From Halomonas getboli (GTDB lineage: Bacteria > Pseudomonadota > Gammaproteobacteria > Pseudomonadales > Halomonadaceae), in contig NZ_JALMEW010000002.1 in the NCBI RefSeq assembly GCF_023094245.1, positions 186,001 through 250,000 on the forward strand: DNA of 64,000 nt, in the 5' to 3' direction. Both the position numbers and the translations under genes were made by a program. Below the pieces are notes generated by a model. It did not search any database. It was not told where the DNA came from and was given only the letters and a program-made list of their open reading frames with translations. Positions 8,661 through 64,000 of the stretch are shown here, piece by piece (the first letter of the stretch is position 1; each line of letters starts with the position of its first letter).

Positions 8661-9389
8661 ATGACTGAGCAACATATCGCGCAAGAACCGGCACAGGCCG
8701 GCGATTCTGAGCAGCATGAGCACTATGCTGCCGAACTCAGCCCCGGCGTCACCATTGCCAAGCTGGAGAAGCTGGCCCGTGGCGCCGCGCGCGGCACCTG
8801 GCAGCGCAACAAGACCGGCCACATTTTTGCCGGCAACGATCGGGTGGCCGAGTGCCCGCCGTGCCAGGGGCATCGCGGCGAACGTAACGCCAAGTACATC
8901 GCCGCCGCCCGGCCGGAGACCGTGCTCGCGCTGATTGATCGGCTGCGCAAGGCAGAGAGCAGCTACCCGACTCCTCACGCCTACGAGGCCGCCTGCGCCG
9001 CGCTGCACAAACAGCGGGAGCGGGCTGACCAAGCCGAGGCCCGGGAGCAGGCCCTGGCGGCGCATTTGGGCCGTCTGGAGCATGGAGGGCGCGCGCTGTA
9101 TCACGAGCTGGAGCAATGGGCGCTTACCGAGCGTGACCCGGAAACTAGCTCAGCCATGTCGGCATGGATGGCTGTTGCCCGCGACAGGCCCGCCACCTCC
9201 CTCGCCCGCCGGGATGCGGAGAAGCAGGCCGAGGCAATGTCGGAGGCGCTGGATGCCCTCGAGTACATGGATAGAGAGGTTGGCAGCGACCGCGGGGCTC
9301 TCGATGCGACGCGGGACGAGTTGCGCGAGCGCATTCGTGCCTATCGCTGCCAAGCTGAGCAGGCCGACACGGACGGGGAGGAATCATGA
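8661..9389 (+). CDS. Ead/Ea22-like phage protein
   Basis: The gene encodes 242 residues from the ATG at 8661 (GGAGAGCG upstream). An in-frame GTG lies 6 bases earlier. The segment NAKYIAAARPETVLALIDRL is the hallmark of the Ead/Ea22-like family of lambdoid phages, and a long charged helical region (ALHKQRERADQAEAREQALA) follows. Members of the family are early, non-essential proteins without a defined biochemical role. The stop overlaps the next gene's start. Confidence 0.7.
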   Translation: MTEQHIAQEPAQAGDSEQHEHYAAELSPGVTIAKLEKLARGAARGTWQRNKTGHIFAGNDRVAECPPCQGHRGERNAKYIAAARPETVLALIDRLRKAESSYPTPHAYEAACAALHKQRERADQAEAREQALAAHLGRLEHGGRALYHELEQWALTERDPETSSAMSAWMAVARDRPATSLARRDAEKQAEAMSEALDALEYMDREVGSDRGALDATRDELRERIRAYRCQAEQADTDGEES

Positions 9390-9682
9390 AGCGCACCATC
9401 TACGACGAGATCCCGATCGGCCAGGCCAAGGCGGGCTCCGCCCGCCGGGGCTCCGCGCAACGCCATGCGCCCCACGACTGGACCGACGACGAGATCAGCG
9501 ACGCCGAAGCCCTGCGCCGTGCCGGGCTGTCGCCCACCGCCATCAAACAGTTCCGCAAGCGCCACCCGAAGCAGGCCGACTGGAGCCGGACCCGCATGAT
9601 CGAGCAGATGCTCGCGAACAAGAAGCGGCGCGACGATGCCAGCCGCCGGAAGCAGGAGGCCCAGCGGCCCGGGGAGGAATGA
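9386..9682 (+). CDS. Small basic phage protein
   Basis: The gene encodes 98 very basic residues. Its middle part, DAEALRRAGLSPTAIKQFRK, could form a short HTH-like unit, and the tail is lysine/arginine-rich (NKKRRDDASRRKQEAQ). It is coupled by 4-base overlaps on both sides. DNA binding is a guess from charge. Confidence 0.55.
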   Translation: MKRTIYDEIPIGQAKAGSARRGSAQRHAPHDWTDDEISDAEALRRAGLSPTAIKQFRKRHPKQADWSRTRMIEQMLANKKRRDDASRRKQEAQRPGEE

Positions 9683-9921
9683 TGGACTGGAGCAAGCTGA
9701 TCACCCATGACCGCGATGAGCATTCATTCAGCGGCGAGTATCGGGATCACGAGATTGAGATCGAGCGCGAGGACGCCGACGACAGGTGGTACATCATCGT
9801 CACCGCTCCCTGCGGAATGCTCGATTACGACGGCTGGTGGTGGAATCAAGGGGCACCACTGGATGAGGCCATCGCGGAAGCGGTGCGCGGGGCGATGATC
9901 GATGAGGAGACAGCCGAGTGA
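9679..9921 (+). CDS. Small acidic phage protein
   Basis: The gene encodes 80 acidic, tryptophan-rich residues (SGEYRDHEIEIEREDADDRW; DGWWWNQGAPLDEAIAEAV). GGGGAGGA precedes tandem ATG codons at 9679 and 9682. The acidic, DNA-mimic-like composition is noticeable, but no family is recognised. Confidence 0.55.
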   Translation: MMDWSKLITHDRDEHSFSGEYRDHEIEIEREDADDRWYIIVTAPCGMLDYDGWWWNQGAPLDEAIAEAVRGAMIDEETAE

Positions 9922-10427
9922 CCCAGCCCACCCACACCCACCGGCAGCACGGCGGCCGGTTCGCCGAATGTAGCCAGTACGCCGGCGGCGGCGCCCTCGA
10001 GGGCCAGACGCTGGTGGCCTATCGCGACCTCGACAAGGACGTGACCAGCGCCACCACGCTCGACGACTGGCACAAGAACTGGAAGCCGCTCGACGCCGAC
10101 GACTGCACGCTCTGCCTGGGCACGGGGCGCGACGCCATCAAGGGCAACCAGACCAACCCCTGCGGCGGCTGCTACGGGCTCGGGAAAGTGCGGAAAGACG
10201 GCGAGGCGCCGGAGGATCGCTGGCAGCTGGCCGACGTCTCCCTGGGCATCATCCAGCGCCAGCAGCAGGAGCTCGGCCGGCTGCGCCAGATCGCCGCGCT
10301 GCCGGGGGTACAGAAGATCTTGGAGAAGCACCGCGCCGAGAACCGGCAGGCGTGGGTCGAGGAAGAACAGAACTGGCGGGAAGGCCCGGGCCGCGGGCAT
10401 GGCGGCCGCCGGCACACAGGAGACTGA
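9918..10427 (+). CDS. Phage protein with DUF1653-like start and zinc-finger-like CxxC pairs
   Basis: The gene encodes 169 residues. The start is a GTG that overlaps the previous stop. The N-terminus (HRQHGGRFAECSQYAGGGAL, later TLVAYRD) resembles DUF1653-type small proteins. A DnaJ-like zinc-finger pattern follows, CTLCLGTG and CGGCYGLG at about residues 58-82. A helical C-terminus of 70 residues completes it. Function unknown. The cysteine pairs are visible, while the family link is tentative. Confidence 0.55.
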   Translation: MTQPTHTHRQHGGRFAECSQYAGGGALEGQTLVAYRDLDKDVTSATTLDDWHKNWKPLDADDCTLCLGTGRDAIKGNQTNPCGGCYGLGKVRKDGEAPEDRWQLADVSLGIIQRQQQELGRLRQIAALPGVQKILEKHRAENRQAWVEEEQNWREGPGRGHGGRRHTGD

Positions 10428-10428
10428 T

Positions 10429-10656
10429 ATGCAGGACATCAATCAGTGGCTCGATCCCAAGTACGTGCAGATCAGTCGGAAGGAGGCAGCGCGCATCATC
10501 GGCCGCAGCCCCACTGAGTTCGACCGGCTGCGCAAGACGGACTCGGATTGCCCGAAGGGATTCAAGACGGGGGACTCACGCGGGGCCCCGGTGCTCTTTC
10601 GCCTGTCAGAGGTCTACCGCTATAGTGAAGTCCTGATGGAGCGCGCTCAGGCATGA
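10429..10656 (+). CDS. Excisionase-like small DNA-binding protein
   Basis: The gene encodes 75 residues with CAGGAGA upstream of the ATG. The sequence reads as a small winged-helix/MerR-like domain: VQISRKEAARIIGRSPTEFD, then APVLFRLSEVYRYSEVL, as in Xis/AlpA-type proteins that read a DNA site and bend it. Its place as the last gene before the presumed attachment site supports an excision role. No integrase gene follows. Confidence 0.55.
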   Translation: MQDINQWLDPKYVQISRKEAARIIGRSPTEFDRLRKTDSDCPKGFKTGDSRGAPVLFRLSEVYRYSEVLMERAQA

Positions 10657-10817
10657 GCGCGCCGGCGGGGAAGATGAGCCAGCGCCAGCAACGATTTTCT
10701 TGTATGCCTGGCTGTATGCCGATGGGGGTTTTGGCTCATAGTGACTTGATTTATAAAGATACTACGGGTCTCCCCATCCGCACCATTCCAATTTGCCTCA
10801 CTTACTCGTCTTCTTGA
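10653..10817 (+). CDS. Short ORF across the prophage/chromosome junction
   Basis: This 54-codon frame starts with ATGA overlap to the excisionase-like gene (KMSQRQQRFSCMPGCMPMGV). It continues through the presumed attachment core, so its C-terminal half would be chromosomal. It may be the residue of a longer phage gene cut by integration or deletion. Coding is uncertain. Confidence 0.25.
   Translation: MSAPAGKMSQRQQRFSCMPGCMPMGVLAHSDLIYKDTTGLPIRTIPICLTYSSS
10775..10785 (+). other. Possible attR core: tRNA 3'-end fragment
   Basis: CATCCGCACCA has the form of a tRNA acceptor 3' strand, discriminator base and CCA. The matching 5' acceptor GCGGATG would suit a leucine tRNA. No tRNA body precedes it, as expected for the duplicated 3' fragment left at the far end of a prophage inserted in a tRNA gene. 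It lies just after the last phage-like gene and before chromosomal-looking DNA. The intact tRNA would be at the left end, outside the window. Confidence 0.35.
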
Positions 10818-10917
10818 CGACCTCTCCTCGAGGCATTCGATAATCCCCTGTGACCAGATTGTGACTTAGCCGTCGACAATCCTATTGCCATTTCTTCTCG
10901 ATCTTTTCGGCCTCTTA

Positions 10918-11604
10918 TCAATAGGCTTTAAGCCGTCCGATTTTGCCGATAAGCCGTGCGGCCAGCTCATGCTTGCCCACGCCGGCGTGCAACTCACGGT
11001 GGCAGTTCGGACACAGGGCGACGGCATTCTCTACGATATCGGGGCCCCCGTCTGCCAAGCGCCTGAGGTGATGAACCTCCAAGAATGGGGTGCCATCCTC
11101 TCGGATGAAGGGAGCGGAAGAACCGCAGCACTCACAGATACCATCGGCCTGCGTCAGCACCCACGCCACCACATCGGGATCACGCTCATACACCGTCGTA
11201 CCGACCGATGTCTTATCCGGTGCCTGCCGCCCCTTCGGTGGTGTCAACGTATCATGACGATACTGGCTGCGACGTTCGTTGACTTCGGTCGCGAAGCGAG
11301 CCGATGAGGCGATACGCTGCCCTTCCGCCTCGGCGATGAACGCCTCGATCCGGGCGACGATATTGACGCCGACGTTGCACGCCGGCTTCAATCCTTCGAC
11401 CCAGGCTCGCCCCTGCTGCGCGTAGACATAGGAGATGTTCTGGGCCCGATATTCGAAGGCCTTGGCCGTCCTGCCGAACCGCACCTCCAGCGCCCTATAA
11501 TAGTGGGCCTTGACCACTCGTTCACCGCGACGCTGCTTGTCGAGCATCTCGATATAGGCCTCGACGGTAGCCCTGAGCTCTTCATCGCTCCATGACCTCG
11601 ACAT
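10918..11604 (-). CDS. HNH endonuclease, McrA-like
   Basis: The gene encodes 228 residues from the ATG at 11604 (AGGGA upstream). A longer frame to 11670 lacks support. The N-terminal 130 residues are a helical DNA-recognition-like domain (SWSDEELRATVEAYIEMLDK). The C-terminal HNH domain has CECCG, EVHHL and CPNCHRELH, a zinc-bound beta-beta-alpha-metal nuclease. This architecture is common in type IV (modification-dependent) restriction proteins. It sits immediately outside the prophage end on the opposite strand, a typical spot for defence cargo. Restriction of modified DNA is inferred. Confidence 0.8.
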   Translation of the reverse strand: MSRSWSDEELRATVEAYIEMLDKQRRGERVVKAHYYRALEVRFGRTAKAFEYRAQNISYVYAQQGRAWVEGLKPACNVGVNIVARIEAFIAEAEGQRIASSARFATEVNERRSQYRHDTLTPPKGRQAPDKTSVGTTVYERDPDVVAWVLTQADGICECCGSSAPFIREDGTPFLEVHHLRRLADGGPDIVENAVALCPNCHRELHAGVGKHELAARLIGKIGRLKAY

Positions 11605-51302: not shown

Positions 51303-53360
51303 TCAGTGACGCGCCGCCTCGGCGGGCTTCACCGTGGTCTCGATCAGCCGGGCGCCGAAGGCCTGCTGGATCTTCTGCACCTGGGGGTCCGCCTGCAGCG
51401 CGGCCACCGCCTCGGCGTGGCGCTCGGCGGCCAGGCGGTCGGCGCGCTGGCGCGGCGTCTCGACGCCCTCGGGCAGCGGCCCGTCGGCGATGGTCAGGCG
51501 CCGCGCGAAACCGGCCCCGGCCAGCGCCTCGCGGATGCGCTCGACGTGAACGTCGGCCTGCATCGCCGCCTGGGACGGATCCAGCCGCAGCGTCAGGGCG
51601 TTGCCGTCATCGGCTTCGACCACGCAATGGGCCGCCAGGTTGCGCGTCAGCCCGGACAGGCCCAGGGCGTCGAAGCGCGTCAGCCATTCGGCATGACTCA
51701 GCTCGCCCGGGGCGGCGTCGGCGGCGTGTGCCTCGGCCGGCACCTCGACAGGTGCGGACTGCGGCTCGGGCTCCGGCTCGGGAGCCGCCGCGACCGAAGC
51801 GGGCTCAGGGGCCGGCTCGGGCCGTGGTTCAGGCTGCGGTTCAGGCCGAGGCGCTGGCGCCTCGGCCACGGGGGCCGGTTCGGGCTCGACCGGCGCCGAC
51901 GCGGCCGACTCGTCCAGGATCCACGGCGGCGGTTCGGCTGCCGCGACCGCGGACGGCGCGGGTTCCGGCGCGGCCTCGGGAGCCGGCTGCGGATCAGCGG
52001 GGGCCTCGGCCGGTGCCGGCGACGCGGCGGACTCGACCGGCGCTGGCGCCGGAGCCGGTTCAGGCGTCGGCTCAGTGGCCGGGGCGGCTTCGGCCGCCGG
52101 CTGCGATACCGCAGCGCCAGGCGCCGCACTCGACGCTTGAGCGGCGCTGGCGGCTTGATCGCTGCCACCCGACTGCCCGGTGCCGCCTCCGGCCGCGGGC
52201 GAGCCGCCGTCACCGCTTCCGCGCATGGGCAGCGGCGTCTGGGCCGGCTTCGGTACGCCCTGGGGACGGAAGGCCAGCATGCGCAGCAGGGTCATCTCCA
52301 GGGCGGTGCGCAGGTCCGGCGCGTGGGCCATGTCGCCGCGGCCCTGGATGCCGATCTGGTAGTAGAGCTGGATGTCCTCGGCGGTGAAACGCGCGGCCAG
52401 CGCCAGCAGCGTGTCGCGGTCGCCGTGGCCGTTGTCCAGGGCGTCGGGCACCATCTGCGCCACGGCCAGGCGGTGCAGCACGCCGGTGACGTCGTCAAGC
52501 ACGCCGGCGAAGTCCGGGCCCTGCTCGGCCAGGGCGGCGACCTCGGACAGCACCCGGGCGGCGTCGACCTCGGCCATGGCCTCGAGCAGCGCCAGCACGT
52601 GGCGATGGTCGAGGGTGCCGAGCATCGCCGCCACGTCGGCGTGGCGCACCTCGCCCTGGCCGAAGGCGATCGCCTGGTCAGTCAGACTCATGGCGTCGCG
52701 CATGGAGCCCTCGGCGGCCTTGCCGAGCAGCCACAGCGCGCTCTCCTCGAAGGAGACCGACTCGGCCTCGAGCACCTTGGAGAGGTGGCCGACGATGCGC
52801 TCCGGCGGCATGTGCTTGAGGGTGAACTGCAAGCAGCGCGACAGCACCGTGGGCGGCAGCTTCTGCGGGTCGGTGGTGGCCAGCAGGAACTTCACGTGGG
52901 GCGGCGGCTCTTCCAGGGTCTTCAGCAGCGCGTTGAAGCTGCTGGTGGAGAGCATGTGCACCTCGTCGATGAGGTACACCTTGTAGCGGCCCTGGGTCGG
53001 AGCGTACTGCACGTTGTCGAGCAGCTCGCGGGTGTCCTCGACCTTGGTGCGCGAGGCGGCATCGACCTCGATCAGATCGACAAAGCGACCGTCATCGATG
53101 GCCTCGCAGCTGGGACACTGGCCGCAGGGCGTGGAGGTCACGCCCTCGTCGCCCTGCCCGTTCGCGGTGCAGTTCAGGCACTTGGCCAGAATGCGCGCCA
53201 GCGTGGTCTTGCCGACCCCGCGGGTACCGGTGAACAGGTAGGCGTGGTGCAGCCGGCCCTGGTCCAGGGCATTGACCAGCGCGCGCTGGACATGCTCCTG
53301 GCCGACCAGTTCATGGAAGGTACGCGGCCGCCACTTGCGGGCCAGAACCTGATAGCTCAT
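51303..53360 (-). CDS. dnaX: DNA polymerase III subunits tau/gamma
   Basis: The gene encodes 685 residues. Domain I has Walker A GTRGVGKT (45-52), a zinc site (CLNCTANG...CGQCPSC) and LIDEVHMLSTSSFNALLKTL followed by EEPP. A long alanine/proline/glutamate-rich linker occupies about 370-540. Domain V starts near GELSHAEWLTRFDALGLSG. No A-rich slippery heptamer like the E. coli gamma frameshift site is visible, so only tau may be made. It starts the replication-repair operon with ybaB and recR. Confidence 0.95.
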   Translation of the reverse strand: MSYQVLARKWRPRTFHELVGQEHVQRALVNALDQGRLHHAYLFTGTRGVGKTTLARILAKCLNCTANGQGDEGVTSTPCGQCPSCEAIDDGRFVDLIEVDAASRTKVEDTRELLDNVQYAPTQGRYKVYLIDEVHMLSTSSFNALLKTLEEPPPHVKFLLATTDPQKLPPTVLSRCLQFTLKHMPPERIVGHLSKVLEAESVSFEESALWLLGKAAEGSMRDAMSLTDQAIAFGQGEVRHADVAAMLGTLDHRHVLALLEAMAEVDAARVLSEVAALAEQGPDFAGVLDDVTGVLHRLAVAQMVPDALDNGHGDRDTLLALAARFTAEDIQLYYQIGIQGRGDMAHAPDLRTALEMTLLRMLAFRPQGVPKPAQTPLPMRGSGDGGSPAAGGGTGQSGGSDQAASAAQASSAAPGAAVSQPAAEAAPATEPTPEPAPAPAPVESAASPAPAEAPADPQPAPEAAPEPAPSAVAAAEPPPWILDESAASAPVEPEPAPVAEAPAPRPEPQPEPRPEPAPEPASVAAAPEPEPEPQSAPVEVPAEAHAADAAPGELSHAEWLTRFDALGLSGLTRNLAAHCVVEADDGNALTLRLDPSQAAMQADVHVERIREALAGAGFARRLTIADGPLPEGVETPRQRADRLAAERHAEAVAALQADPQVQKIQQAFGARLIETTVKPAEAARH

Positions 53361-53749
53361 GCAGCTCGGAATCCTTGCGGCTGGGCTGGCTGGCAGCCGA
53401 ACACGAAAGCCCCGCCGATGCGAAGATCGCCGACCGACGGGCTTGAAGAGATGCCACGTATTCTACCGGGTGGCGGCCCAGGCGCAAAGCGTGGGCCGGG
53501 GGCGCCGGTGCACTTCGCCTGTCCCCCATGAAGCCTACCCTCGACCGGGCTGAAAAAGTGCCTGGATGCATCCACAGGCTTGTACATACGCACAGAGATC
53601 CCCCACCTTCAGGGGAAAGGAAGCAGACGTCGCAATCTTGCCTTTGATAAGCTAATCAAACATTAATCAGAACACCTAAAGAGACCGGGACGTGCCCCGC
53701 GCCAGGGGAGAGGACACCGCGTCACCAACGCAGGAAGCAAAGGGGAAAC
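53361..53749. promoter_or_regulatory. Divergent intergenic region dnaX / helicase gene
   Basis: No gene is supported in these 389 bases. A short AT-rich patch at 53638-53680 contains the inverted repeat TTTGAT-aagcta-ATCAAA (53643-53660) and ATTAATCAGAACA, the most likely promoter for the defence genes. The rest is GC-rich upstream sequence of dnaX. The bacterial SRP RNA signature was looked for and not found. Confidence 0.45.
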
Positions 53750-56671
53750 ATGGGCCAGCAGCTTGCTCCGGGAATGCGCCTGGAAATCCGCGATGCCGAA
53801 TGGCGTCTTACCCGCCTCGACCAGACCAGCGATGGAGGGCAGCAGCTCAGCTGCACGGGCCTGTCGGAACTGGTGCGCGGCCGCGAGGCAAAGTTCCTGA
53901 CGCGCCTTGAGGATGACATCCGCATTCTCGACCCGGCGACCACTGAACTGGTGGACGATCTCTCACAGGGCCACCGTGCCGGCCTTTTGACCCTGGCCAC
54001 CCAGCTACGCGACACCACGCCGACGGATGACCGCATCCACATGGGCCACCACGCAGCCATGGACGCCCTGCCCTTCCAGCTCGAACCCACGCGTCAGGCA
54101 CTGGCCCAGCCTCGGGCACGAATGCTGATCGCCGATGCCGTCGGCCTGGGTAAGACGCTTGAAGCCGGCATTCTCACCAGCGAGCTGATCGCCCGCGGAC
54201 GCGGCAAACGCATCCTGGTACTGGCCGTCAAATCCATGCTCGGCCAGTTCCAGCAGGAATTCTGGAACCGCTTCACCATCCCGCTGACACGCCTCGACTC
54301 CCAGGGCCTGGCCCGGGTACGCAATCGCATCCCGGCCAACCACAACCCCTTTCACTACTTCGATCGGTCGATCATTTCCATCGACACCCTCAAGCAGGAC
54401 ATCGAGTACCGCCACTACCTCGAACAGGCTCACTGGGACATCATCATCATCGATGAGGCCCACAACGTCGCCGAACGCGCCGGCGGCCAGGGTGCCTCAC
54501 AACGCGCACGCCTGGCCCGACTGCTGGCCACTCGCTCCGACACCCTGATCATGCTCTCGGCCACGCCCCACGACGGCAAACCGGAAAGCTTCGCCAGCCT
54601 GATGAACATGCTGGACCCCACGGCCATCACCAACCCCAGCCAGTACGCCCACGAAGACTTCCGCGACAAGGGCCTGGTGATTCGCCGCTTCAAGAAGGAC
54701 GTGCGCGACCAGCTCGGGGACTTCCCCGACCGCCAGATCGACCGCCACTACGCCACCGCCAGCGCGCACGAAGAGCACGCCTTCGAGCAGCTGATGGACG
54801 TCACCTTTCACACCCTGGACGGCCAGCGCACCGCCGGCAGCGGCCTGTTCCGCACACGGCTGGAAAAGACGCTGTTCTCCAGCCCGGCAGCGTGTCTCTC
54901 AACCATCGAAAACCGCCTGGCCAAGCTGCAGAAACAAGCACACACCCCCGAGCGCAGTGCCGATATCGACAGCCTGGAAGGCCTGGCGCTGGCCGTGCGC
55001 GCCATCACCCCCGAGCATTTCAGCAAGTACCAGAGCCTGCTCGAGTTGCTGGGCAAAAAGCCCGGCCAGGGCGAAATGGGCTGGCAACGAGACGCCGACG
55101 ACCGCCTGGTGATCTTCACCGAAAGTCTCACCACCCTGGCCTTTCTCGAAGCGCATCTGCCTGGTGACATCGGCCTCAAGGCCAAACAGGTCGGCGTGCT
55201 GCGCGGCACCGATCGCGACCGAGACATCATGGCCACCGTCGAGGCCTTCAATCGCGGAGACAGCCCACTGCGCCTGCTACTCTGCTCAGACGTCGCCGCC
55301 GAAGGCATCAACCTACACCACCGCGCCCACCGCATGGTGCACTTCGACATTCCCTGGTCGCTGATGGTCTTCCAGCAGCGTAACGGCCGCATCGACCGCT
55401 ACGGCCAGACACAACCGCCGCAGATTCGCTACCTGATCACCGAATCCGAGCATCCCAAGGTACGCGGCGACCAGCGCGTGCTCGAGGTACTGATCGACAA
55501 GGATGACCAGGCCAGCCGCAATATCGGCGATCCGTCCGAGTTTACCGCCGGCCGCACACAGGAAGAACAGGAAGCGCAGGTCACCGAAGTGCTCGAGCGC
55601 GACGACGACCCCGACGACCTCTCGGCACTTTTCGCCGGCCTGCTCGACGACCAGCTCAACGACAGCGAATCACCACTCGACGCCTTTATTCCCGACACCC
55701 GACCGGCCACCACTCTCGACGAGTTGACCACCCAACCGCCCCGGCTCTATCCCAGCACCCTGGCCTGGTCCCGCGCCGCCATCGACTGGCTGCGCCAGGC
55801 CATGCGCGAACAGGGGCAGGAGCTCCAGGCCAGCGTCGACGAGCAGGCCCAGCGCCTGGAACTGACCGCGCCCGAAGACCTGCGCCAGCGGCTTACCTAT
55901 CTGCCCCGCGAGATTCGTCCCGAACACGACCGCTTCATTCTCACCGCCGATGCGCAGCGCATGCAGCAGGCCCTCGACCAGGCACGCCAGGAAGACGATC
56001 CCTGGCCCGTCGTGCAGTACCTCTGGCCTCTGCACCCGGTGCTCGAATGGCTTCGCGACCGCATCCTCAACGCCTTCGGCCGGCACACCGCCCCGGTCAT
56101 CCGCGTGCCCGCCGCCCTGCCCGAAGGCCAGGCCCGCGTACTGCTGCATGGCGGCTACCCCAACCGTCGCGGCCAGGCTCTGATCCAGTCCTGGTGTGCC
56201 GTCCCCATCGACACCAGCGACGGCAGCGTCGGCGAACCGATGTCGCTCGATGATGCCCTGAGCGAACTGGCGCTTGACCCCGAATCATTGCCCAACCCCG
56301 GCATCCCGGGCGACAACAGCCTGCTTCAGGCCACCCTGCCCGACGCCGTCAAGGCCGCGAAACGCTATCTGCACGAAGTCCGCGTACAGCGTGAAGGCGA
56401 GATCAACGACCGCCTCAACGCCCAGATGAACGCCATGGATGCCTTGAAGACGCGGCACCAGCAACAGATCGAGCTCGACCTCAGCAGCAGCCGCGAACAG
56501 GAGAGCCGCAAGCAACGCCGCCGTGACGAGCGCACCGCACGGCTCGAGCACATCTTCAAGGACTACGAGAACTGGCTGGAAGCCACCCAGCAGATCGAAA
56601 ACCAGCCCTGGCTCCAGGTCGCCGCCGTTTTCACCGGCGACCCGGCCACATCGGCGGTCCCCGGAACATGA
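53750..56671 (+). CDS. SNF2-type helicase, DrmD-like (DISARM class 1)
   Basis: The gene encodes 973 residues with AGGGGAAAC before the ATG. It is a superfamily 2 SNF2 ATPase. Walker A is ADAVGLGKTLEAG (128-140), Walker B is IIIDEAHNVAERA (DEAH 235-238), motif III is MLSATPHDGKPES, motif V is LLLCSDVAAEGINLHHRAHR, and motif VI is QQRNGRIDRYGQ (542-553). A C-terminal region of about 400 residues with a coiled coil (about 875-930, MNAMDALKTRHQQQIELDLS) has no known enzymatic motif. The length and the following adenine-methylase gene match DrmD of class 1 DISARM. Its function in restricting phage DNA is inferred. Confidence 0.8.
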   Translation: MGQQLAPGMRLEIRDAEWRLTRLDQTSDGGQQLSCTGLSELVRGREAKFLTRLEDDIRILDPATTELVDDLSQGHRAGLLTLATQLRDTTPTDDRIHMGHHAAMDALPFQLEPTRQALAQPRARMLIADAVGLGKTLEAGILTSELIARGRGKRILVLAVKSMLGQFQQEFWNRFTIPLTRLDSQGLARVRNRIPANHNPFHYFDRSIISIDTLKQDIEYRHYLEQAHWDIIIIDEAHNVAERAGGQGASQRARLARLLATRSDTLIMLSATPHDGKPESFASLMNMLDPTAITNPSQYAHEDFRDKGLVIRRFKKDVRDQLGDFPDRQIDRHYATASAHEEHAFEQLMDVTFHTLDGQRTAGSGLFRTRLEKTLFSSPAACLSTIENRLAKLQKQAHTPERSADIDSLEGLALAVRAITPEHFSKYQSLLELLGKKPGQGEMGWQRDADDRLVIFTESLTTLAFLEAHLPGDIGLKAKQVGVLRGTDRDRDIMATVEAFNRGDSPLRLLLCSDVAAEGINLHHRAHRMVHFDIPWSLMVFQQRNGRIDRYGQTQPPQIRYLITESEHPKVRGDQRVLEVLIDKDDQASRNIGDPSEFTAGRTQEEQEAQVTEVLERDDDPDDLSALFAGLLDDQLNDSESPLDAFIPDTRPATTLDELTTQPPRLYPSTLAWSRAAIDWLRQAMREQGQELQASVDEQAQRLELTAPEDLRQRLTYLPREIRPEHDRFILTADAQRMQQALDQARQEDDPWPVVQYLWPLHPVLEWLRDRILNAFGRHTAPVIRVPAALPEGQARVLLHGGYPNRRGQALIQSWCAVPIDTSDGSVGEPMSLDDALSELALDPESLPNPGIPGDNSLLQATLPDAVKAAKRYLHEVRVQREGEINDRLNAQMNAMDALKTRHQQQIELDLSSSREQESRKQRRRDERTARLEHIFKDYENWLEATQQIENQPWLQVAAVFTGDPATSAVPGT

Positions 56672-56748
56672 CGAGCATGACGCAACAAGCGCGCACCTGG
56701 ATGCCGTCTGCCCTGACGCCCTATCGTGCCCGGATAGCGGCAGCCACC

Positions 56749-56777
56749 TTGCGGGCCGATATCGGCGTACCTATAAT
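56749..56777 (+). promoter_or_regulatory. Sigma-70 promoter for the AbiF-associated RNA
   Basis: TTGCGG (56749-56754), a 17-base spacer and a consensus TATAAT (56772-56777). Transcription would start near 56784, at the left end of the structured RNA. It is the best-matching promoter in the right part of the window. Confidence 0.75.
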
Positions 56778-56783
56778 ACTCGG

Positions 56784-56844
56784 CAACACACCCGCCAAGC
56801 CTATGGCTGCTCCGGCAGTTACGCTTAAATCGCGCGGGTTTTTT
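56784..56844 (+). ncRNA. Small structured RNA upstream of the AbiF gene (abiF-type RNA candidate)
   Basis: A compact element of about 60 bases. ACCCGC (56790-56795) can pair with GCGGGT (56834-56839), which is followed by a TTTTTT tract (56839-56844), as in an intrinsic terminator. Inside lie AGCC-tat-GGCT (56798-56808) and the alternative CTGC-tccg-GCAG (56807-56818). A structured RNA motif named abiF has been described upstream of abiF genes in several bacterial phyla. This element has the expected position, size and a consensus promoter. Identity with that family is inferred from context, not from a covariance search. Confidence 0.65.
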
Positions 56845-56891
56845 ATTGCCTATCACAAGGGCCACGGCCACCCCAAGCAGGAGGTGGCCAC

Positions 56892-57917
56892 ATGACACGC
56901 TTCGCCAAGCCTGCCCTCACCGCCCGTGAACAGCTCGACCTGCTGATCGAACGCGGCCTCCAGGTAGAGAATGCAGAACGAGCCCTCCGTCTGCTGGAAG
57001 TCACCACGCTGTTCAGGCTCAGCCCTTATATGCGGCCTTTCCAGTTTCCCGAGGATAGCGAGCACGCCTTCAAGCCCGGTAGCAGGCTCGCCGATATCGT
57101 TCGGGTCTATCGCTTCGACAGCGACCTGCGGCAGCTGCTGATGACGGCGCTGGAAAGAGTCGAGATCGCCGTGCGCGCCTGCATCAGCCACCATATGGCA
57201 CCAGCTTATGGGGCTCACTGGTATCTGGACCGACAGCAGTTCGTACACCACTACCGTTTCGGCCGCATGATCGGTGATATCGAGAACACGCTGGCATCGG
57301 AACGGAAGAAGTTTCAGCGCGAACAGCAGCAGATCCAGAAGAGCCGCGTATCCGACGAGATAAAGCGTCAGCGCATCGAAAGTCGCAAACGCGACAACTA
57401 TCCACGCTTCTATGCAGAAACCTACTCCGACCCCTGCCTGCCACCCTCCTGGGCGGCACTCGAGGAGATGAGCCTGGGCAGCATTTCGCATCTGTATCAG
57501 GGGCTGGCCCGGGACCGTGACCGCAAGGCCATCGCGACGCGCTTCGGCCTTCATCAGAAGGTCCTGGGCAGCTGGCTGCATACCCTGACCTTCGTACGCA
57601 ACATCTGCGCCCACCACGCCCGGTTATGGAATCGTGAGCTAGGGATACCGCCCAGATGGGATGACAACATTTCCACCCCCGACGGCCGCCCGGGGCGCGA
57701 TGTACCACGTCGCCTGTTCACCGTGCTGGCCATGCTGACGTATCTCACCACCCAGATCAGCCCGGACACCCGTTGGCCCGGCCGCCTGCAGACGTTGCTG
57801 GCGGAGTATCCCGATATCCCGCGCCAGCCCATGGGGTTTCCCGACGACTGGCAGCAACGACTCGCATCGCTACACACACAGCCACCGGCCACGGCAGGCA
57901 AGGCAAAGACGCGTTAA
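56892..57917 (+). CDS. AbiF/Abi_2-type HEPN protein (abortive infection)
   Basis: The gene encodes 341 residues with AGGAGGTGGCC ahead of the ATG. The Abi_2 (AbiD/AbiF) family pattern is clear: LTAREQLDLLIERGLQVENA, then FRLSPYMRPFQ, YRFDSDLRQLLMTALERVEI and RNICAHHARLWNRELGIPP. The last holds the HEPN ribonuclease motif R-x4-H (Arg236, His241). Proteins of this family are phage-exclusion toxins, most likely RNases. A structured RNA with its own promoter lies just upstream, so the pair looks like an RNA-regulated toxin unit placed between the helicase and methylase genes. It ends 13 bases before the methylase. Confidence 0.85.
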   Translation: MTRFAKPALTAREQLDLLIERGLQVENAERALRLLEVTTLFRLSPYMRPFQFPEDSEHAFKPGSRLADIVRVYRFDSDLRQLLMTALERVEIAVRACISHHMAPAYGAHWYLDRQQFVHHYRFGRMIGDIENTLASERKKFQREQQQIQKSRVSDEIKRQRIESRKRDNYPRFYAETYSDPCLPPSWAALEEMSLGSISHLYQGLARDRDRKAIATRFGLHQKVLGSWLHTLTFVRNICAHHARLWNRELGIPPRWDDNISTPDGRPGRDVPRRLFTVLAMLTYLTTQISPDTRWPGRLQTLLAEYPDIPRQPMGFPDDWQQRLASLHTQPPATAGKAKTR

Positions 57918-57930
57918 GGCAAGGAAGGCT

Positions 57931-60900
57931 ATGGCACACGCAGGCATCATCAACGACAACGAGTTCTACAGCGAGCACTACCTCGCCGATATCTTCGAAG
58001 GCGACATTCGCGGCGTCATCGAGGCCTGGCAGCAGCAGGCCAACGACACCGGCGGCGACACGCCCTGGGCCGGGCTTCGCCGTGGCGCACACGAGCGCCT
58101 GCGCGAGATCGAGGCCACCCAGACGCTGATCCGTCGTGGCCGCCGCCACGAGGTCATCGAAGCCGCCCGCGAGCTGGCCCGCCCTATGCTCGAACGCTTC
58201 GGCTACGCGGTCCAGCCGGAACGCCGTGCGCTGAGCGACGACGCCGAAGTGCCGCTGCTCGCCGAACTTAACGACACCCAGGGCGCGCCGCTGTTGTGGG
58301 TCATCGAATCGCTGCCCTTCGACGAGCCCCAGGGCGACCCCTTGGCCGCCGCGCCCCTGCCGGCCCAGTACCTCAGCTTCGACGAGACCCCGCTACCCGG
58401 CGCCTTCCAGCGCGAACTCGAAAGCGAAACGCCGCCAAGCTGGCAAAGCCTGCTCTCCCGCCTGGTCTTCGCCCAGGAGCGCCCGCCGCGCTGGGTGCTG
58501 CTGGTGGCCCCGCACCAATGGGTGCTCATCGACCGCAGCCGCTTCGCCCGCGGCCAGTTGCTGCGCTTCGACTGGGTCGAACTGCTCACACGCCGCGACA
58601 CCGATGCCCTCAAGGCCGCCAGCGTGCTGCTCGGCCGCGAGTCGCTGCTCGACGCCAACGGCCAGAGCCTGCTCGACACCCTCGACGAAAACGCCCACAA
58701 GCACGCCTACGGCGTCAGCGAGGACCTCAAGTACGCCCTGCGCGAAGGCATCGAGCTGCTTGGCAACGAAGCCGCCCGCCAGCTCATCGAGCGCGCCCGA
58801 AGCCGCAAGGAAGGCATCTACTCCGGCCAGCTCGACCCCGACCAGCTCTCCCGCGAATGCCTGCGTACCATGTACCGCCTGCTGTTCCTGTTCTACATCG
58901 AGGCTCGCCCCGAGCTCGGCTACGCCCCGGTGGACAGCGCCACCTACCTCAGCGGCTATTCTCTGGAGGGCCTGCGCCAGCTGGAACTCACACCGATGAC
59001 CAGCGAGCGCGAACGCCAGGGCAGTTTCCTGCACCACTCCATCACCCGGCTCTTCCGCCTGGTGCATGAAGGCGTCGAAGCGCCCAGCAACGAACAGCTC
59101 GACTTCGAGGACATCGGCGGCACGGACGACGACGCCTTCACCTTGCCGGCGCTCAAGAGCCACCTCTTCGACCCTCAGCGCACCAAGCTGCTCGACAAGG
59201 TGGTCTTCCCCAACGTCATCTTGCAGCAGATCATCCAGCTGATGTCGCTCTCGCGCCCCGCCAAGGGCCGCGGCAAGCGCCGCCGCGGGCGCATCAGCTA
59301 CGCCCGGCTGGGCATCAACCAGCTCGGCGCCGTCTACGAGGCCCTGCTCAGCTATCGCGGCTTCTTCGCCGAGCAGGACCTCTTCGAGGTCAAGCGCGCC
59401 GGCGAGGCCAACCCCGACCCGCTGGACACCGGCTACTTCGTCACCGCCGAGCAGCTCGAACAGTTCAGCGACGCCGAGCGCGTCTTCGACCGCGACGAAG
59501 ACGGCTACCAGCAGCTGCGCCGCCACCCGCGTGGGCGCTTTCTCTACCGCCTGGCCGGGCGCGACCGCGAAAAGAGCGCCTCCTACTACACCCCGGAGGT
59601 GCTGACCCGGTCACTTGTCAAGTACGCCCTCAAGGAGGTCTACGCCGAGCAGCTCGACCCGCTGCCCGACGACGCCACCCGCGCCGAGCGCCTGCTCAGC
59701 CTGACCCTCTGCGAGCCAGCCATGGGCAGCGCCGCCTTCCTGAACGAGGCCATCGACCAGCTCGCCGACAAGTACCTGGCCCTGGCTCAGAGCGCCAAAC
59801 AGCAGCACGACCCCAGCGCCGAGCGCATTCCCCAGGCCGAATACGCCGCCGAGAAGCAGCGCGTCAAGATGTACCTGGCCGACCACAGCGTCTTCGGCGT
59901 CGACCTGAACCCCGTGGCCGTGGAGCTCGCCGAGGTCTCGCTATGGCTCGGCGCCCTCTCATCCGACCGCTTCGTGCCCTGGTTCGGCTTTCAGCTGCGC
60001 ACCGGCAACTCGCTGATCGGCGCCCGCCGCGAGGCCTACCCGGCCAGCGCCCTCGGCCTCAAGCCCAAGGACCCCGCCGCCTGGCTCAACCGCGCCGGCG
60101 ACGCCATCCCGCTGGTGGTCGAGGACGCCAAGGACGGAGCCGGGACCGTGGCCGGTGACAACAAGGCGGAGAACACCGCGCAACAAAGTGATGGTCATGC
60201 GCCCGATCAGAAGTTGGGCGAGAGCCGGATCTGGCACTTCCTGCTGCCCTTCACCGGCATGGCCGACTACACCGACAAGGTCGCCAAGCAGCTGTTCGGC
60301 GATGAACTGGCTGCCATCAAGCAGTGGAAGAAGGGCTTCACCGCGCCCTTCAATCCCGAAGAGCGCCAGCGCCTGGAACGCCTCAGCCAGCAGGTCGAGG
60401 CGCTGTGGGTCGAGCACGCCCGCGAGCTGGCCCGCATTCGCGCCCGCACCAGCGACCCCTACCCCATCTACGGCCGCGAGGCCAACGGCGAGCCCACCAG
60501 CCTGGCCTTCAAGGACGCCATGGAAGCCTCGCTCACCGAGCGCTACCAGCAGAGCGCCCCGGCCTACCGCCGCCTCAAGCTGGCCATGGATTACTGGTGT
60601 GCGCTGTGGTTCTGGCCCATCGACCGCGCCGAGGAACTGCCCAGCCGCGAGGAATGGCTTTGGGACCTGGAAACCCTGCTGCTCGGCGACACCATCGGCG
60701 CCGGCCCCAGCCACGACATCCCCGACCTCTTCCAGCAGGAGCCCGAGGGCATCGAGGAAGGCCGGCGCTTCGTCGACCGCTTCGGCGTGGTCAAGCTGGC
60801 CACCCTGTTCCGCGCCTGCCCGCGCTTGAAGCTCGCCGACGAGCTGGCCGAGGCCCGTCGCTTCTTCCACTGGGAGCTGGAATACGCCGATGTGTTCTCC

Positions 60901-62937
60901 GGCGCCGTCAGCGGCCGCCGCGGCTTCGACCTGGTGCTGGGTAACCCGCCCTGGCTCAAGGTGGAATGGCAGGAAGGCGGCATCATGGGCGACCACCAGC
61001 CCGCCTTCGCCCTGCGCAAGACCTCCGCCAGCCAGCTCGCCACCCTGCGCGAACAGGCCTTTCACGACCACCCCGGCCTGCTCGGCGCCTGGCGCCGCGA
61101 ATACGAGGAAAGCGAAGGCACCCAGGCCTTTCTCAACAGCGCCGCCAACTACCCGCTGCTCAAGGGCGTGCAGACCAACCTCTACAAGTGCTTTCTGCCC
61201 ACCGCCTGGCGACTGGGTTGCGAACAGGGTGTGGCAGGCTTCCTGCACCCGGAGGGGATCTATGACGACCCCAAAGGAGGTAGCTTCCGGGAGATAGTCT
61301 ATCCCCGACTGCGAGCACATTTTCAGTTCGAGAATGAGCTTCTTTTATTTCCGATCGGAGGCACACGCCGTTACGGCATCAACATTTACTCGCGGCCTCA
61401 GCCAGAACCTTCATTTAAGGCTATAGCTAACGTCTTTCATCCCAAAGTCATCGACTTTTCGCATACCTCACTGCCAGAGAAAGAAGCACCTGGCATCAAG
61501 GATGAAACTTGGGATGGCAGCAAATTTAATTTCACGTGGAGTACCAAAGGGCACCCCGACCGAATCATTGAGATTAACAAACAATCTTTAGAACTTTTCG
61601 CTTCGTTATATGACGAGGTGGGCACACAGCCACTGCAGGCGCGACTACCTGCCCTACATATACGACAGTTGATTCGTGTTCTGGAGCGCTTCGCCGCACA
61701 GCCTACCCGCCTGGCGGACATGACTGGAGACTATGTGTCTCTAGAAATGTGGCACGAGACCAATGCCCAGAAAGACGGCACCATCCAGCGGAAAACATGC
61801 TTTCCCAAAAGCTCCAGCGAGTGGATCCTTAGCGGCCCACATTTCTATATTGGCTTACCTATGTACAAGACGCCTCGCTCGGTCTGCACTGAAAAGGGGC
61901 ACTACGATATCTTGGATCTAGAAACCCTCCCCGACGACTACCTGCCGCGCACAAACTATGTCCCCGCCTGCGATGCGGATACCTACGCAGGCCGAACACC
62001 CCGTGTCAGCTGGATTGAGGAAGGAAAAACACAACCGAACAAGGTCACGGACTATTATCGATTAGCATACCGTGGAATGCTTTCACAGTCCGGAGAAAGA
62101 ACCTTAATCCCTTCTATCCTTCCGAAAGGCTGCGGACATATTCATGGTGCGCAAACAACAGCATTCAAGAACAATCTGACCTTAATTAAGCAAGCTTTAT
62201 TTTGTACTTCTCTGGCAGGAGATTTTTACACAAAGACAACGGGAAGGAGCAACCTAATGGCCACTTGGTCTGCATTCCCGTTACTAGAAAAAGTTCCTCA
62301 GGCCTCAACGAGGCTATTATCATTAAACTGTCTAACCAACCATTATTCAGAACTCTGGCAGTCCTGCTGGCAGGACGCTTTTAAGCAAGCCCAATGGGCC
62401 AGCGATAGCCCGCTGCTGGATCATGACTTCTTTGCCAATCTGACGCCGGAGTGGCAGCGACATTGCGCGCTACGCAACGACTACGCCCGCCGTCAGGCCC
62501 TGGTGGAAATCGACGTATTGGTCGCCCAGACACTGGGCATGACCCTGGAAGAACTCAAGACCATTTATCGCGTGCAGTTCTACGTCATGCGCCAAAATGA
62601 AGCCGACACCTGGTATGACGCCCGCGGCCGCATCATCTTCACCCCCAGCAAGGGCCTCGCCGGCGTCGGCCTGCCCCGCAAGGCCAACAAGAAGGAACTG
62701 GAGCAGGACATTCACTACTCCATCGAATCCCCGGAGCGCACCGACTACAACATCGCCCTCGGCTGGGAAGACGTGAAAGACATGCAGGAAGGCGTCGTCC
62801 GTAAGACCTGGCTCGACGACACCCTCCCCGACGGCCCCTGGGAAACCACCATCGAATACCACGCTCCCTTCACCCGCCCGGATCGGGAGAAGGACTATGA
62901 AAAAGCGTGGGAAATCTTTGAGCAATCCAAGGCATGA
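57931..62937 (+). CDS. Large Eco57I/DrmMI-like adenine DNA methyltransferase
   Basis: The gene encodes 1668 residues. An N-terminal helical region of about 540 residues precedes the methylase core: SYYTPEVLTRSLVKYAL (551-567), motif I CEPAMGSAAFLNEA (594-607), VFGVDLNPVAVELAEVSLWL (654-673) and motif IV NPPW (1005-1008), the gamma-type N6-adenine order. A target-recognition region follows (about 1110-1490), encoded by conspicuously AT-richer DNA than the rest. No PD-(D/E)xK or HNH nuclease motif is evident, which suits a methylase such as DrmMI better than a type IIG enzyme. AAGGAAGGCT precedes the ATG. BREX PglX is an alternative but PglZ and BrxC are absent here. Confidence 0.8.
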   Translation: MAHAGIINDNEFYSEHYLADIFEGDIRGVIEAWQQQANDTGGDTPWAGLRRGAHERLREIEATQTLIRRGRRHEVIEAARELARPMLERFGYAVQPERRALSDDAEVPLLAELNDTQGAPLLWVIESLPFDEPQGDPLAAAPLPAQYLSFDETPLPGAFQRELESETPPSWQSLLSRLVFAQERPPRWVLLVAPHQWVLIDRSRFARGQLLRFDWVELLTRRDTDALKAASVLLGRESLLDANGQSLLDTLDENAHKHAYGVSEDLKYALREGIELLGNEAARQLIERARSRKEGIYSGQLDPDQLSRECLRTMYRLLFLFYIEARPELGYAPVDSATYLSGYSLEGLRQLELTPMTSERERQGSFLHHSITRLFRLVHEGVEAPSNEQLDFEDIGGTDDDAFTLPALKSHLFDPQRTKLLDKVVFPNVILQQIIQLMSLSRPAKGRGKRRRGRISYARLGINQLGAVYEALLSYRGFFAEQDLFEVKRAGEANPDPLDTGYFVTAEQLEQFSDAERVFDRDEDGYQQLRRHPRGRFLYRLAGRDREKSASYYTPEVLTRSLVKYALKEVYAEQLDPLPDDATRAERLLSLTLCEPAMGSAAFLNEAIDQLADKYLALAQSAKQQHDPSAERIPQAEYAAEKQRVKMYLADHSVFGVDLNPVAVELAEVSLWLGALSSDRFVPWFGFQLRTGNSLIGARREAYPASALGLKPKDPAAWLNRAGDAIPLVVEDAKDGAGTVAGDNKAENTAQQSDGHAPDQKLGESRIWHFLLPFTGMADYTDKVAKQLFGDELAAIKQWKKGFTAPFNPEERQRLERLSQQVEALWVEHARELARIRARTSDPYPIYGREANGEPTSLAFKDAMEASLTERYQQSAPAYRRLKLAMDYWCALWFWPIDRAEELPSREEWLWDLETLLLGDTIGAGPSHDIPDLFQQEPEGIEEGRRFVDRFGVVKLATLFRACPRLKLADELAEARRFFHWELEYADVFSGAVSGRRGFDLVLGNPPWLKVEWQEGGIMGDHQPAFALRKTSASQLATLREQAFHDHPGLLGAWRREYEESEGTQAFLNSAANYPLLKGVQTNLYKCFLPTAWRLGCEQGVAGFLHPEGIYDDPKGGSFREIVYPRLRAHFQFENELLLFPIGGTRRYGINIYSRPQPEPSFKAIANVFHPKVIDFSHTSLPEKEAPGIKDETWDGSKFNFTWSTKGHPDRIIEINKQSLELFASLYDEVGTQPLQARLPALHIRQLIRVLERFAAQPTRLADMTGDYVSLEMWHETNAQKDGTIQRKTCFPKSSSEWILSGPHFYIGLPMYKTPRSVCTEKGHYDILDLETLPDDYLPRTNYVPACDADTYAGRTPRVSWIEEGKTQPNKVTDYYRLAYRGMLSQSGERTLIPSILPKGCGHIHGAQTTAFKNNLTLIKQALFCTSLAGDFYTKTTGRSNLMATWSAFPLLEKVPQASTRLLSLNCLTNHYSELWQSCWQDAFKQAQWASDSPLLDHDFFANLTPEWQRHCALRNDYARRQALVEIDVLVAQTLGMTLEELKTIYRVQFYVMRQNEADTWYDARGRIIFTPSKGLAGVGLPRKANKKELEQDIHYSIESPERTDYNIALGWEDVKDMQEGVVRKTWLDDTLPDGPWETTIEYHAPFTRPDREKDYEKAWEIFEQSKA

Positions 62938-62999: not shown

Positions 63000-64000
63000 A
63001 TGACGATCAAGAAAACCTTCCGCTGGGCAGCCAGAAAATCCAGCTATCGCGGGACCAGTAATCGCAGGATTTCCGGGCGCCCCGAGCGGGAGACACCGCC
63101 GGGGACCGCCAAACGGTTTCCGGATGCAGAAGCTGACCGAGATGAGGCTTTCCTCCTCGATGAGAGTGCCGAGTACGAGATGCTTGACGAAGATCAGATC
63201 GACGAGGATGACGATGGTACGCATGACAGAGATACCTGCGGCCTGAATACAAGGGCTACCCCTGACAGCCACCCTGTGGACCGGCCCCCTGGACGTACCA
63301 CCCTTCACCTGCCAGACAAGGCCAGGCGGAGGAAACCCGAAACATGTGCGGCGCCAGGGGAAAGTCAGGATAGTCGTCATCGCATTCATCCTCCCCACAA
63401 GACACCCACTAATGAAGCTTCCATGGTGCTTCATTCTCAAGAGGCCAGGGAAGGATCCGCTCGCCCTTCTTTGCAGCGGCCGGCGAAAGACATTCATCGT
63501 GTCAGCCATAACGACAAGAGCTACAAGCACGCCACGCAGGAGAATCCATCAGAGGTGAGTCAGAAGGCGCCGGATACAGAGGCCGATTCGGATGAAGACG
63601 AAATCCTCAATAACAGTGTCGAACATGGGGCTCTTGGCGACACGGATGTCGACAAGGACGGTGCCGAAAACCCCTCTAGGCTTGGCCGCAGCGCTCGCGC
63701 CCCAAAACGCACTATTCTTCACCTTCCCGATAAGACGCAAAGGAGTGCCACGGAAACAGAGACACAACCTTCACAAGCTCCGGAGCCCCCGCCCTACGCC
63801 AATGAGTCATCCAGTCCCAGTAGCTCATGGCAGGCTCACTCCGAAGAAGCCCTCTCTATGTCTCACTACGAGGCGGAAATCGAGCCTGAGGAAAGCGAAC
63901 CGTCAAGCCTCTTGGACGATCTCTTCGAGGACAACGACATCGTAGAGCCGGATATATATGAGGATTCGCTGGAGGAGTTAGACGACAGGCTCCACGAAAA
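63000..64000 (+). CDS. Acidic repeat-containing protein, unrecognised, open at the right edge
   Basis: An uninterrupted frame begins at an ATG (63000) with a strong ribosome site (GGAGGAGAGGGGATAAG) 62 bases after the methylase and runs past the window end (at least 333 residues). The N-terminus is basic (MTIKKTFRWAARKSSYRGTS). The rest is acidic, Ser/Pro-rich and probably disordered. An internal duplication of about 140-150 residues is visible: PDAEADRDEA (41) matches PDTEADSDED (191), and RTTLHLPDK (99) matches RTILHLPDK (237). GC content is lower than in the flanking housekeeping genes. No family is recognised. Position suggests a part of the defence locus. Confidence 0.65.
   Translation, partial: MTIKKTFRWAARKSSYRGTSNRRISGRPERETPPGTAKRFPDAEADRDEAFLLDESAEYEMLDEDQIDEDDDGTHDRDTCGLNTRATPDSHPVDRPPGRTTLHLPDKARRRKPETCAAPGESQDSRHRIHPPHKTPTNEASMVLHSQEAREGSARPSLQRPAKDIHRVSHNDKSYKHATQENPSEVSQKAPDTEADSDEDEILNNSVEHGALGDTDVDKDGAENPSRLGRSARAPKRTILHLPDKTQRSATETETQPSQAPEPPPYANESSSPSSSWQAHSEEALSMSHYEAEIEPEESEPSSLLDDLFEDNDIVEPDIYEDSLEELDDRLHE

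Follow-up and report, generated by a model that had tools for sequence, protein, structure and literature searches.

Within the 64,000-nucleotide stretch analysed here (the window) of the genome of Halomonas getboli, a salt-loving bacterium, a gene for a HEPN protein of the AbiF family and a small structured RNA predicted directly upstream of it very probably form a toxin–antitoxin cassette that works in a type III-like manner, the RNA blocking AbiF, and that has its place inside an anti-phage operon of ARMADA type II-like make-up. Family membership by homology, a conserved anatomy, covarying RNA structure, a protein fold match and the nesting itself are the observations made here; that the RNA acts as antitoxin is the leading reading, carried over from work on two other AbiF systems (PMC12373285, PMC12737573). 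Judged by sequence, the pair is a further member of the published AbiF toxin–antitoxin family, and an RNA-controlled HEPN toxin, of a family proposed to be ancestral to Cas13, would thus sit inside a recently described defence operon. The features of the cassette, in window coordinates, are as follows.

56749–56777, + strand: promoter-like site, with a −35 element TTGCGG (56749–56754), a 17-nt spacer and a −10 element TATAAT (56772–56777)
56784–56845, + strand: predicted RNA antitoxin of ~60 nt, its presumed start about 7 nt past the −10 element and its presumed end in the T tract
56791–56839, + strand: abiF RNA core, from the cmscan match to RF03085, the fold and the pair counts
56791–56796 with 56832 and 56834–56838, + strand: outer stem of the abiF RNA
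56798–56800 with 56823–56825, + strand: middle stem of the abiF RNA
56804–56810 with 56815–56821, + strand: inner hairpin of the abiF RNA
56839–56844, + strand: T6 tract after the closing stem, terminator-like in sequence and presumed to terminate
56866–56889, + strand: predicted hairpin over the AbiF ribosome-binding site, a weak lead, predicted in the eight leaders folded
56892–57917, + strand: abiF gene (341 aa), Abi_2/HEPN toxin by PF07751 and by profile and fold matches to 8vz6

A cmscan of positions 56650–56950 (301 bases) returned one match up to an E-value of 5, to the abiF RNA family RF03085; window positions 56791–56839 (+) align to the full model (1–37) with 32.5 bits and an E-value of 2.8e-4. 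In a scan of the whole 3.66-Mb genome the same interval is the only RF03085 match at E ≤ 1e-3 (E 8.1e-4). The score lies below the Rfam gathering score of 37, an annotation cut-off rather than a biological feature, and a default Rfam scan of the window is empty for this reason; the other abiF RNAs of the ARMADA clade, in the same listing of relatives' genomes, also score 32.4–34.6 bits. All Rfam core pairs are formed in the window RNA, no non-standard pair is marked, and the inner hairpin is longer than that of the model (20 bases versus 9 model positions in the cmscan alignment). The locus holds one copy of the RNA, the core of which ends 52 nt 5′ of abiF on the same strand. A preceding sequence-only reading had described a roughly 60-base element of nested hairpins running into a T6 tract directly 5′ of an AbiF/HEPN gene, which the letters confirm (the AbiF frame opens at ATG 56892); it had also named the abiF RNA motif and proposed the covariance model as a check, and the model does match, over its full length albeit under the cut-off. 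The ARMADA-like operon around the cassette had escaped that reading. At 56904–56912 the abiF coding start repeats GCCAAGCCT, a sequence that also occurs within the core of the upstream RNA; CCAAGC occurs at the equivalent coding position in several homologues and probably derives from Ala-Lys-Pro codons.

The promoter-like site has a perfect −10 element and a 17-nt spacer, whereas its −35 element agrees with the consensus at only three of six positions; the initial description as a 'near-perfect' sigma-70 promoter was too strong. Because of this −35 element, a consensus promoter scan of 55500–58500 found no promoters; the sole terminator-like site found in that region lies elsewhere, with none at the T6 tract. 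The promoter call gains support from a comparison of spacing across loci: at all 13 loci with AbiF just downstream (which include the window, near-identical relatives, and two loci, L097 and L099, with identical upstream sequence) the top-scoring promoter-like sequence shows a 17-nt spacer and a distance of 13–14 nt from its end to the RNA, an arrangement found at 6 of the 17 loci without an adjacent AbiF. The T6 tract probably attenuates readthrough into abiF and, since armB begins 13 nt after abiF, probably limits readthrough into armB as well.

Folding energy alone is modest evidence for the structure; positions 56780–56847 fold with −22.0 kcal/mol, while shuffled sequences average −16.99 (z −1.86), and 13 of 200 shuffles were as good. 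Comparative evidence comes from an alignment of nine RNAs upstream of AbiF homologues (eight distinct), each found through the protein or its leader. Across the eight distinct sequences 96.1% of cells are paired on the named structure, compared with at most 48.4% when the structure is slid along the alignment. In the inner hairpin nine cells show two-sided change, where shuffles average 3.4 and none of 500 reaches nine; counted as pairs with two-sided change, the value of three is no excess over shuffles (2.5; 296/500). The outer and middle helices are invariant in this protein-anchored set, and are therefore silent on covariation there. Among 27 RNAs, mostly recovered with the covariance model, which itself favours pairing, outer pair 4 covaries (GC 17, CG 9, TA 1), as does the first middle pair (AT 14, CG 9, TA 3, other 1). 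Covarying pairs, for which the sequence-only reading had suggested looking in homologues, hence exist in the inner hairpin, at outer pair 4 and at the first middle pair.

The unpaired segments AAG, CCT and AAAT are conserved across genera as strongly as the stems. This bears on the possibility that the element is only a cis-acting terminator or attenuator between armA and abiF-armB, which would set expression without any binding to AbiF. Such a role would fit the stem and T6 tract placed directly 5′ of abiF with armB 13 nt behind that gene, and the abiF RNAs that relatives carry at a distance from AbiF within type I R-M operons, several of these RNAs lacking the usual promoter spacing. A terminator needs no conserved unpaired letters, however, so the conservation of AAG, CCT and AAAT speaks against a pure terminator, as do the dedicated promoter at fixed spacing and the C. 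difficile abiF RNA, which binds AbiF and acts in trans (PMC12373285). We therefore consider a purely cis-acting element unlikely, and favour an RNA that binds AbiF.

A further hairpin, predicted over the AbiF ribosome-binding site, was considered and rejected as anything beyond a weak lead. Its fold z-scores range from −0.10 to −6.65 across eight leaders; in the eight-row count, of which one row (L039) is probably misaligned, no pair changed on both sides and pairing was 91.1% versus 91.7% in shuffles, giving neither compensatory change nor an excess over shuffles. Accessibility at this hairpin is 0.23–0.36, compared with a median of 0.39 for 14 other window genes.

The AbiF protein matches PF07751 (Abi_2) with an E-value of 1.7e-46 and 159.3 bits (curated cut-off 25.6), and no other gene of the genome matches Abi_2 at E ≤ 1e-3; NCBIfam has no family for it. 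The HEPN motif RNICAH, of the R-polar-x3-H type, occupies residues 236–241 (57597–57614), with R236, N237 and H241 invariant in 20 aligned sequences. When 50 AbiF homologues were scanned by script, L050 (271 aa) had no motif in the scanned stretch and L055 a deviant one. A search of the PDB with the AbiF profile gave a single distinct sequence at E ≤ 0.01, that of 8vz6 (1.3e-83). The AlphaFold2 model (pLDDT 90.1, pTM 0.85) has, by Foldseek, 8vz6 as its only PDB match at E ≤ 0.001, an entry titled 'PbAbiF dimer bound to ncRNA' (E 9.1e-18).

AbiF has been proposed as an ancestor of Cas13 (PMC12737573, PMC12948488), which lends some appeal to the idea that the RNA is a guide directing AbiF to target RNAs in the manner of a crRNA; the sequence-only reading had raised a guide-like regulator as one option. 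The structured core takes up almost the whole of the predicted RNA, with no spacer or repeat array visible in the sequence, its unpaired segments are conserved between genera, and a review describes AbiF as having no RNA-targeting specificity (PMC12948488). A guide function is accordingly highly improbable, and that suggestion is not upheld; an RNA that blocks the nuclease remains our preferred reading.

The cassette lies between two genes, which are followed by a third at the window's end.

53750–56671, + strand: armA-like SNF2/RapA helicase gene (Pfam SNF2-rel_dom, Helicase_C), start codon uncertain
57931–62937, + strand: armB-like DNA methyltransferase gene (Pfam Eco57I), 13 nt after abiF
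63000–64000, + strand: first part of a 557-aa gene in this operon, which continues past the window (L003 3000–4673)

The armA-like product is 52% identical to an ArmA-like protein of E. coli EC1515 over residues 3–963, and the armB-like product 52% identical to the ArmB-like protein over its full length. In the window and beyond its end (L003), homologues of ArmA, ArmB, ArmC and ArmD follow in order, with 52, 52, 40 and 50% identity to the EC1515 proteins; the gene content of the EC1515 operon fits the description of ARMADA type II in a 2025 preprint (PMC12458937). The arrangement of a BrxHII/RapA-like helicase, a PglX-like methylase, a YprA-like helicase and a GajB-like helicase, in this order, is present. 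ArmD of ARMADA type II carries a RelE-like domain at its N-terminus; the ArmD homologue here has no Pfam match in its first 250 aa, but aligns nearly end to end with the E. coli ArmD-like protein. For the helicase, NCBIfam offers DrmD below its cut-off (339.8 versus 610 bits), and the methyltransferase match is also only sub-cut-off; PADLOC labels the locus AbiD, DrmD and type IIG, a looser assignment than comparison with the ArmA–D proteins themselves provides. In EC1515 armA and armB are separated by 2 nt, whereas the window has the RNA and AbiF at this place. The stretch from the armB-like to the armC-like gene (L003 3000–7666) contains a second RapA-like helicase gene and the 557-aa gene, for which neither Pfam nor PADLOC gives a match. 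The strict ARMADA gene order, as we understand it, is thus departed from by AbiF between A and B and two genes between B and C, and because of these extra genes within the arm order we call the operon 'ARMADA type II-like'.

The main text of PMC12458937 contains neither 'HEPN' nor any word starting with 'abi', and no paper describing AbiF nested in ARMADA was found in the open-access literature searched. Abi2/AbiF/AbiD genes were, however, tabulated in 2013 as embedded in R-M operons (PMC3710099), so that the nested position adds one more case to a habit already known; judged from the sequence, it is a new setting for a published family.

The operon adjoins dnaX, named by eye, in the window (51303–53750) and in the relative G035 (L120 14964–16328), where dnaX is the same gene as the window's and 83.5% identical to it. 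This neighbourhood is absent from five other loci checked; it is a possible integration site.

Among relatives the armA–armB slot varies in content, holding AbiF, an 873-aa gene, both, or nothing. An ArmA match at E ≤ 1e-60 is present in 9 of 90 genomes of the genus. In G016 and G074 AbiF comes after a full-length ArmA at least 85% identical to that of the window; behind such an ArmA in G035 lies the unrelated 873-aa gene (L120 9101–11722), for the product of which Pfam gives only a sub-threshold PD-(D/E)XK match. In Aidingimonas (L038) AbiF comes first and is followed by a homologue (8953–11502) 71% identical to the G035 gene. In more distant operons (G063, two in G008, and G019) armB follows armA without AbiF, and a degraded second armA-like copy in G016 (L075) has no AbiF on the piece examined. 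The Aidingimonas ArmA is 90% identical to that of the window and its AbiF only 65%, with two tandem abiF RNAs (L038 7765–7933) before AbiF, each with its own promoter-like site; the first is of the window's hairpin type and the second, next to AbiF, of the other type. From this combination we infer a probable exchange of cassettes. Downstream of the armB-like gene, G035 (L120 1–2009) and G009 (L121 7412–9993) have genes that by eye resemble Zorya ZorA/ZorB.

In two genomes AbiF and its RNA are intact although the flanking genes are truncated: G006 lacks ArmA residues 108–894 and ArmB residues 72–1565, and the ArmA and ArmB genes of G009 are likewise truncated. Neither genome has an ArmC match at E ≤ 1e-30; a short ArmC fragment is still present in the NO4 contig. 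A third genome, G031, carries AbiF and the RNA with no match to ArmA (E ≤ 1e-60), ArmB (1e-20) or ArmC (1e-30); its AbiF match crosses a TGA close to its end.

These genomes bear on an arrangement in which ARMADA proteins would keep AbiF inactive, releasing it when a phage disables ARMADA, with the RNA in a secondary role. The nesting of the cassette between armA and armB would suit such control, for which PrrC, held by the R-M enzyme PrrI, and the Abi2 genes in R-M operons offer precedent (PMC3710099). A toxin held only by ARMADA would, however, be lethal in G006, G009 and G031, which argues against it, as does the fixed pairing of RNA and AbiF; we regard control by ARMADA proteins as quite improbable, and control by the RNA as the better account. 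The apparent outlasting of the arm genes by AbiF is a pattern of two genomes, and two observations count against reading it as addiction: in G032 (L072) a deletion seems to span the slot, an armB fragment coming immediately after an armA fragment so that AbiF is missing from the slot, and the AbiF of G008 is interrupted. Since the content of the site differs among relatives, the question of whether a nested toxin–antitoxin pair keeps or backs up its host operon is directly testable.

RF03085 matches at E ≤ 0.1 were found in 31 of 195 genomes (the window's own and relatives), 13 of them over the cut-off. The search yielded 30 loci; with a profile of 50 AbiF homologues, an AbiF homologue was detected starting 17–53 nt downstream at 13 of them, and the other 17 had none on the piece examined. 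The abiF RNA, as judged from these loci, is not strictly tied to the toxin. Type I R-M-like operons of relatives from the Halomonas group (L105–L109, L111–L113, L115) also contain abiF RNAs, placed shortly before a gene of ~1070 codons that Pfam identifies as HsdR in L109 and in the cut L105 copy; AbiF is elsewhere in the operon or absent, and several of these RNAs lack the usual promoter spacing. A further abiF RNA (L116 near 4860, G048) has no AbiF on its 9-kb piece, with surroundings prophage-like by eye, and an identical RNA occurs in a virus contig (L132).

Solitary abiF RNAs are also found in viruses. A strict core pattern matched 82 IMG/VR contigs, compared with one for a control in which each block was letter-reversed, and the closing stem is also present in 70 of the 82. 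An AbiF homologue lies within 400 nt downstream at 8 of 80 loci examined. Fifty whole records, hand-chosen from the 82 and possibly fragments, all have an RF03085 match at E ≤ 0.01, with scores of up to 62.9 bits that pass the gathering score in 30 of them, and PF07751 is found in four. A second pattern gave 99 loci: AbiF is present at 11, nine lie too close to a contig end to judge, and the RNA stands alone at 79 (56 distinct sequences). Of the solitary RNAs, 25 lie outside any called frame and at most 60 nt after a same-strand stop codon, and 30 overlap a reading frame called mechanically with a minimum of 50 codons. In the strict-pattern set, 16 of the 70 RNAs with the closing stem have a promoter-like site at roughly the usual distance. 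The IMG/VR pieces with abiF RNAs are L125–L244.

Against a phage collection neither the window RNA nor one viral RNA gave a match. Of five queries made of viral RNAs with their surroundings, two found nothing, two hit the collection only outside the RNA (capsid genes; a hypothetical protein) and one matched through the RNA. This last query matched Acinetobacter phage Acj61 (Straboviridae; L246 2501–2541) and Roseobacter phage CRP-143 (Autographiviridae; L247 2501–2545) over 41–44 nt, that is, the RNA alone. The RNA lies 7 nt after a hypothetical gene in Acj61 and 12 nt after the scaffolding gene in CRP-143. The complete genomes match RF03085 with 58 and 50.8 bits, respectively, and have no Abi_2 match at E ≤ 0.1. 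Relative to the viral query the stem has a paired change at pair 3 in Acj61 (C-G to A-U) and at pair 4 in CRP-143 (G-C to A-U), with the unpaired segments conserved in both.

The viral and phage abiF RNAs that lack an AbiF gene may be antitoxin decoys, with a terminator or a remnant as alternatives. The phage PhiTE pseudo-ToxI escape locus is a precedent for RNA decoys (PMC5449768); an abiF RNA of cyanophage S-CREM1 is in print, the passages on it in PMC9964418 and PMC12197685 making no decoy proposal, and no paper on abiF decoys was found in the open-access literature searched. Taken further, AbiF and its RNA could be arms-race currency, nested in exchangeable slots of defence operons, whilst unrelated phages, Acj61 and CRP-143 among them, carry the RNA alone, in some instances right behind a phage gene, as a decoy that disarms AbiF during infection; we put this wider proposal at a little short of an even chance. 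If true, the solitary phage RNAs would be natural AbiF inhibitors, the counterpart of the PhiTE pseudo-ToxI (PMC5449768), and the phage decoy would matter more than the nested cassette.

For the window cassette, the proposed mechanism is that the promoter makes an RNA of ~60 nt and that the closing stem and T6 tract end most transcripts, which would make the RNA more abundant than the readthrough mRNA that encodes AbiF and the armB-like protein. The RNA would bind AbiF and block its HEPN RNase. Should the RNA be lost faster than the protein, whether because a phage shuts off host transcription or because the locus is lost, the freed AbiF would cut RNA and growth would stop. Expression, attenuation, binding, toxicity, trigger and any benefit to the operon are the proposed parts of this account. 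Counting against it are the sub-cut-off score, the single RNA copy and the relatives' RNA loci that lack AbiF, and, for the structure, the invariant outer and middle helices of the protein-anchored set, a number of two-sided pairs no higher than in shuffles, and the recovery of most of the 27 RNAs with the covariance model.

The closest analogues are two AbiF systems. In C. difficile the abiF RNA RCd22, which has a promoter and terminator, counters AbiF_Cd in two ways, through premature termination in cis and through binding of the AbiF protein in trans; toxicity requires the arginine and histidine of the HEPN motif (PMC12373285). AbiF_Cd/RCd22, from C. difficile phi027, resembles the window cassette in that an Abi_2 gene is immediately preceded by an abiF RNA, there with a sigma-A promoter and a terminator; it differs in carrying two abiF motifs in one RNA and in lying in a prophage lysis module, whereas the window RNA has one motif, a longer inner hairpin and a chromosomal ARMADA-like operon around it. 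PbAbiF is reported to have RNase activity that its RNA inhibits (review PMC12737573); PbAbiF/AbiFr (8vz6; Zilberzwige-Tal 2025, via PMC12737573 and PMC12373285) has the same protein fold and likewise an RNA partner, with a sequence identity of 27% in the structural alignment. Repeats in the antitoxin are described as a key feature of type III toxin–antitoxin systems (PMC12373285), and the window locus has a single RNA copy; what we claim is therefore a system that works like type III and belongs with the AbiF systems, not with the ToxIN-like repeat class. The RNA has all the core pairs and conserved unpaired letters of RF03085, and departs from it in score (32.5 versus 37 bits) and in its longer inner hairpin. 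The operon agrees with ARMADA type II (PMC12458937) in its armA-armB-armC-armD homologues in order, but adds the AbiF cassette, the 557-aa gene and the second RapA-like helicase. With the HEPN genes of R-M operons the cassette shares its nested position, although the parts of PMC3710099 that treat those genes mention neither an RNA nor ARMADA.
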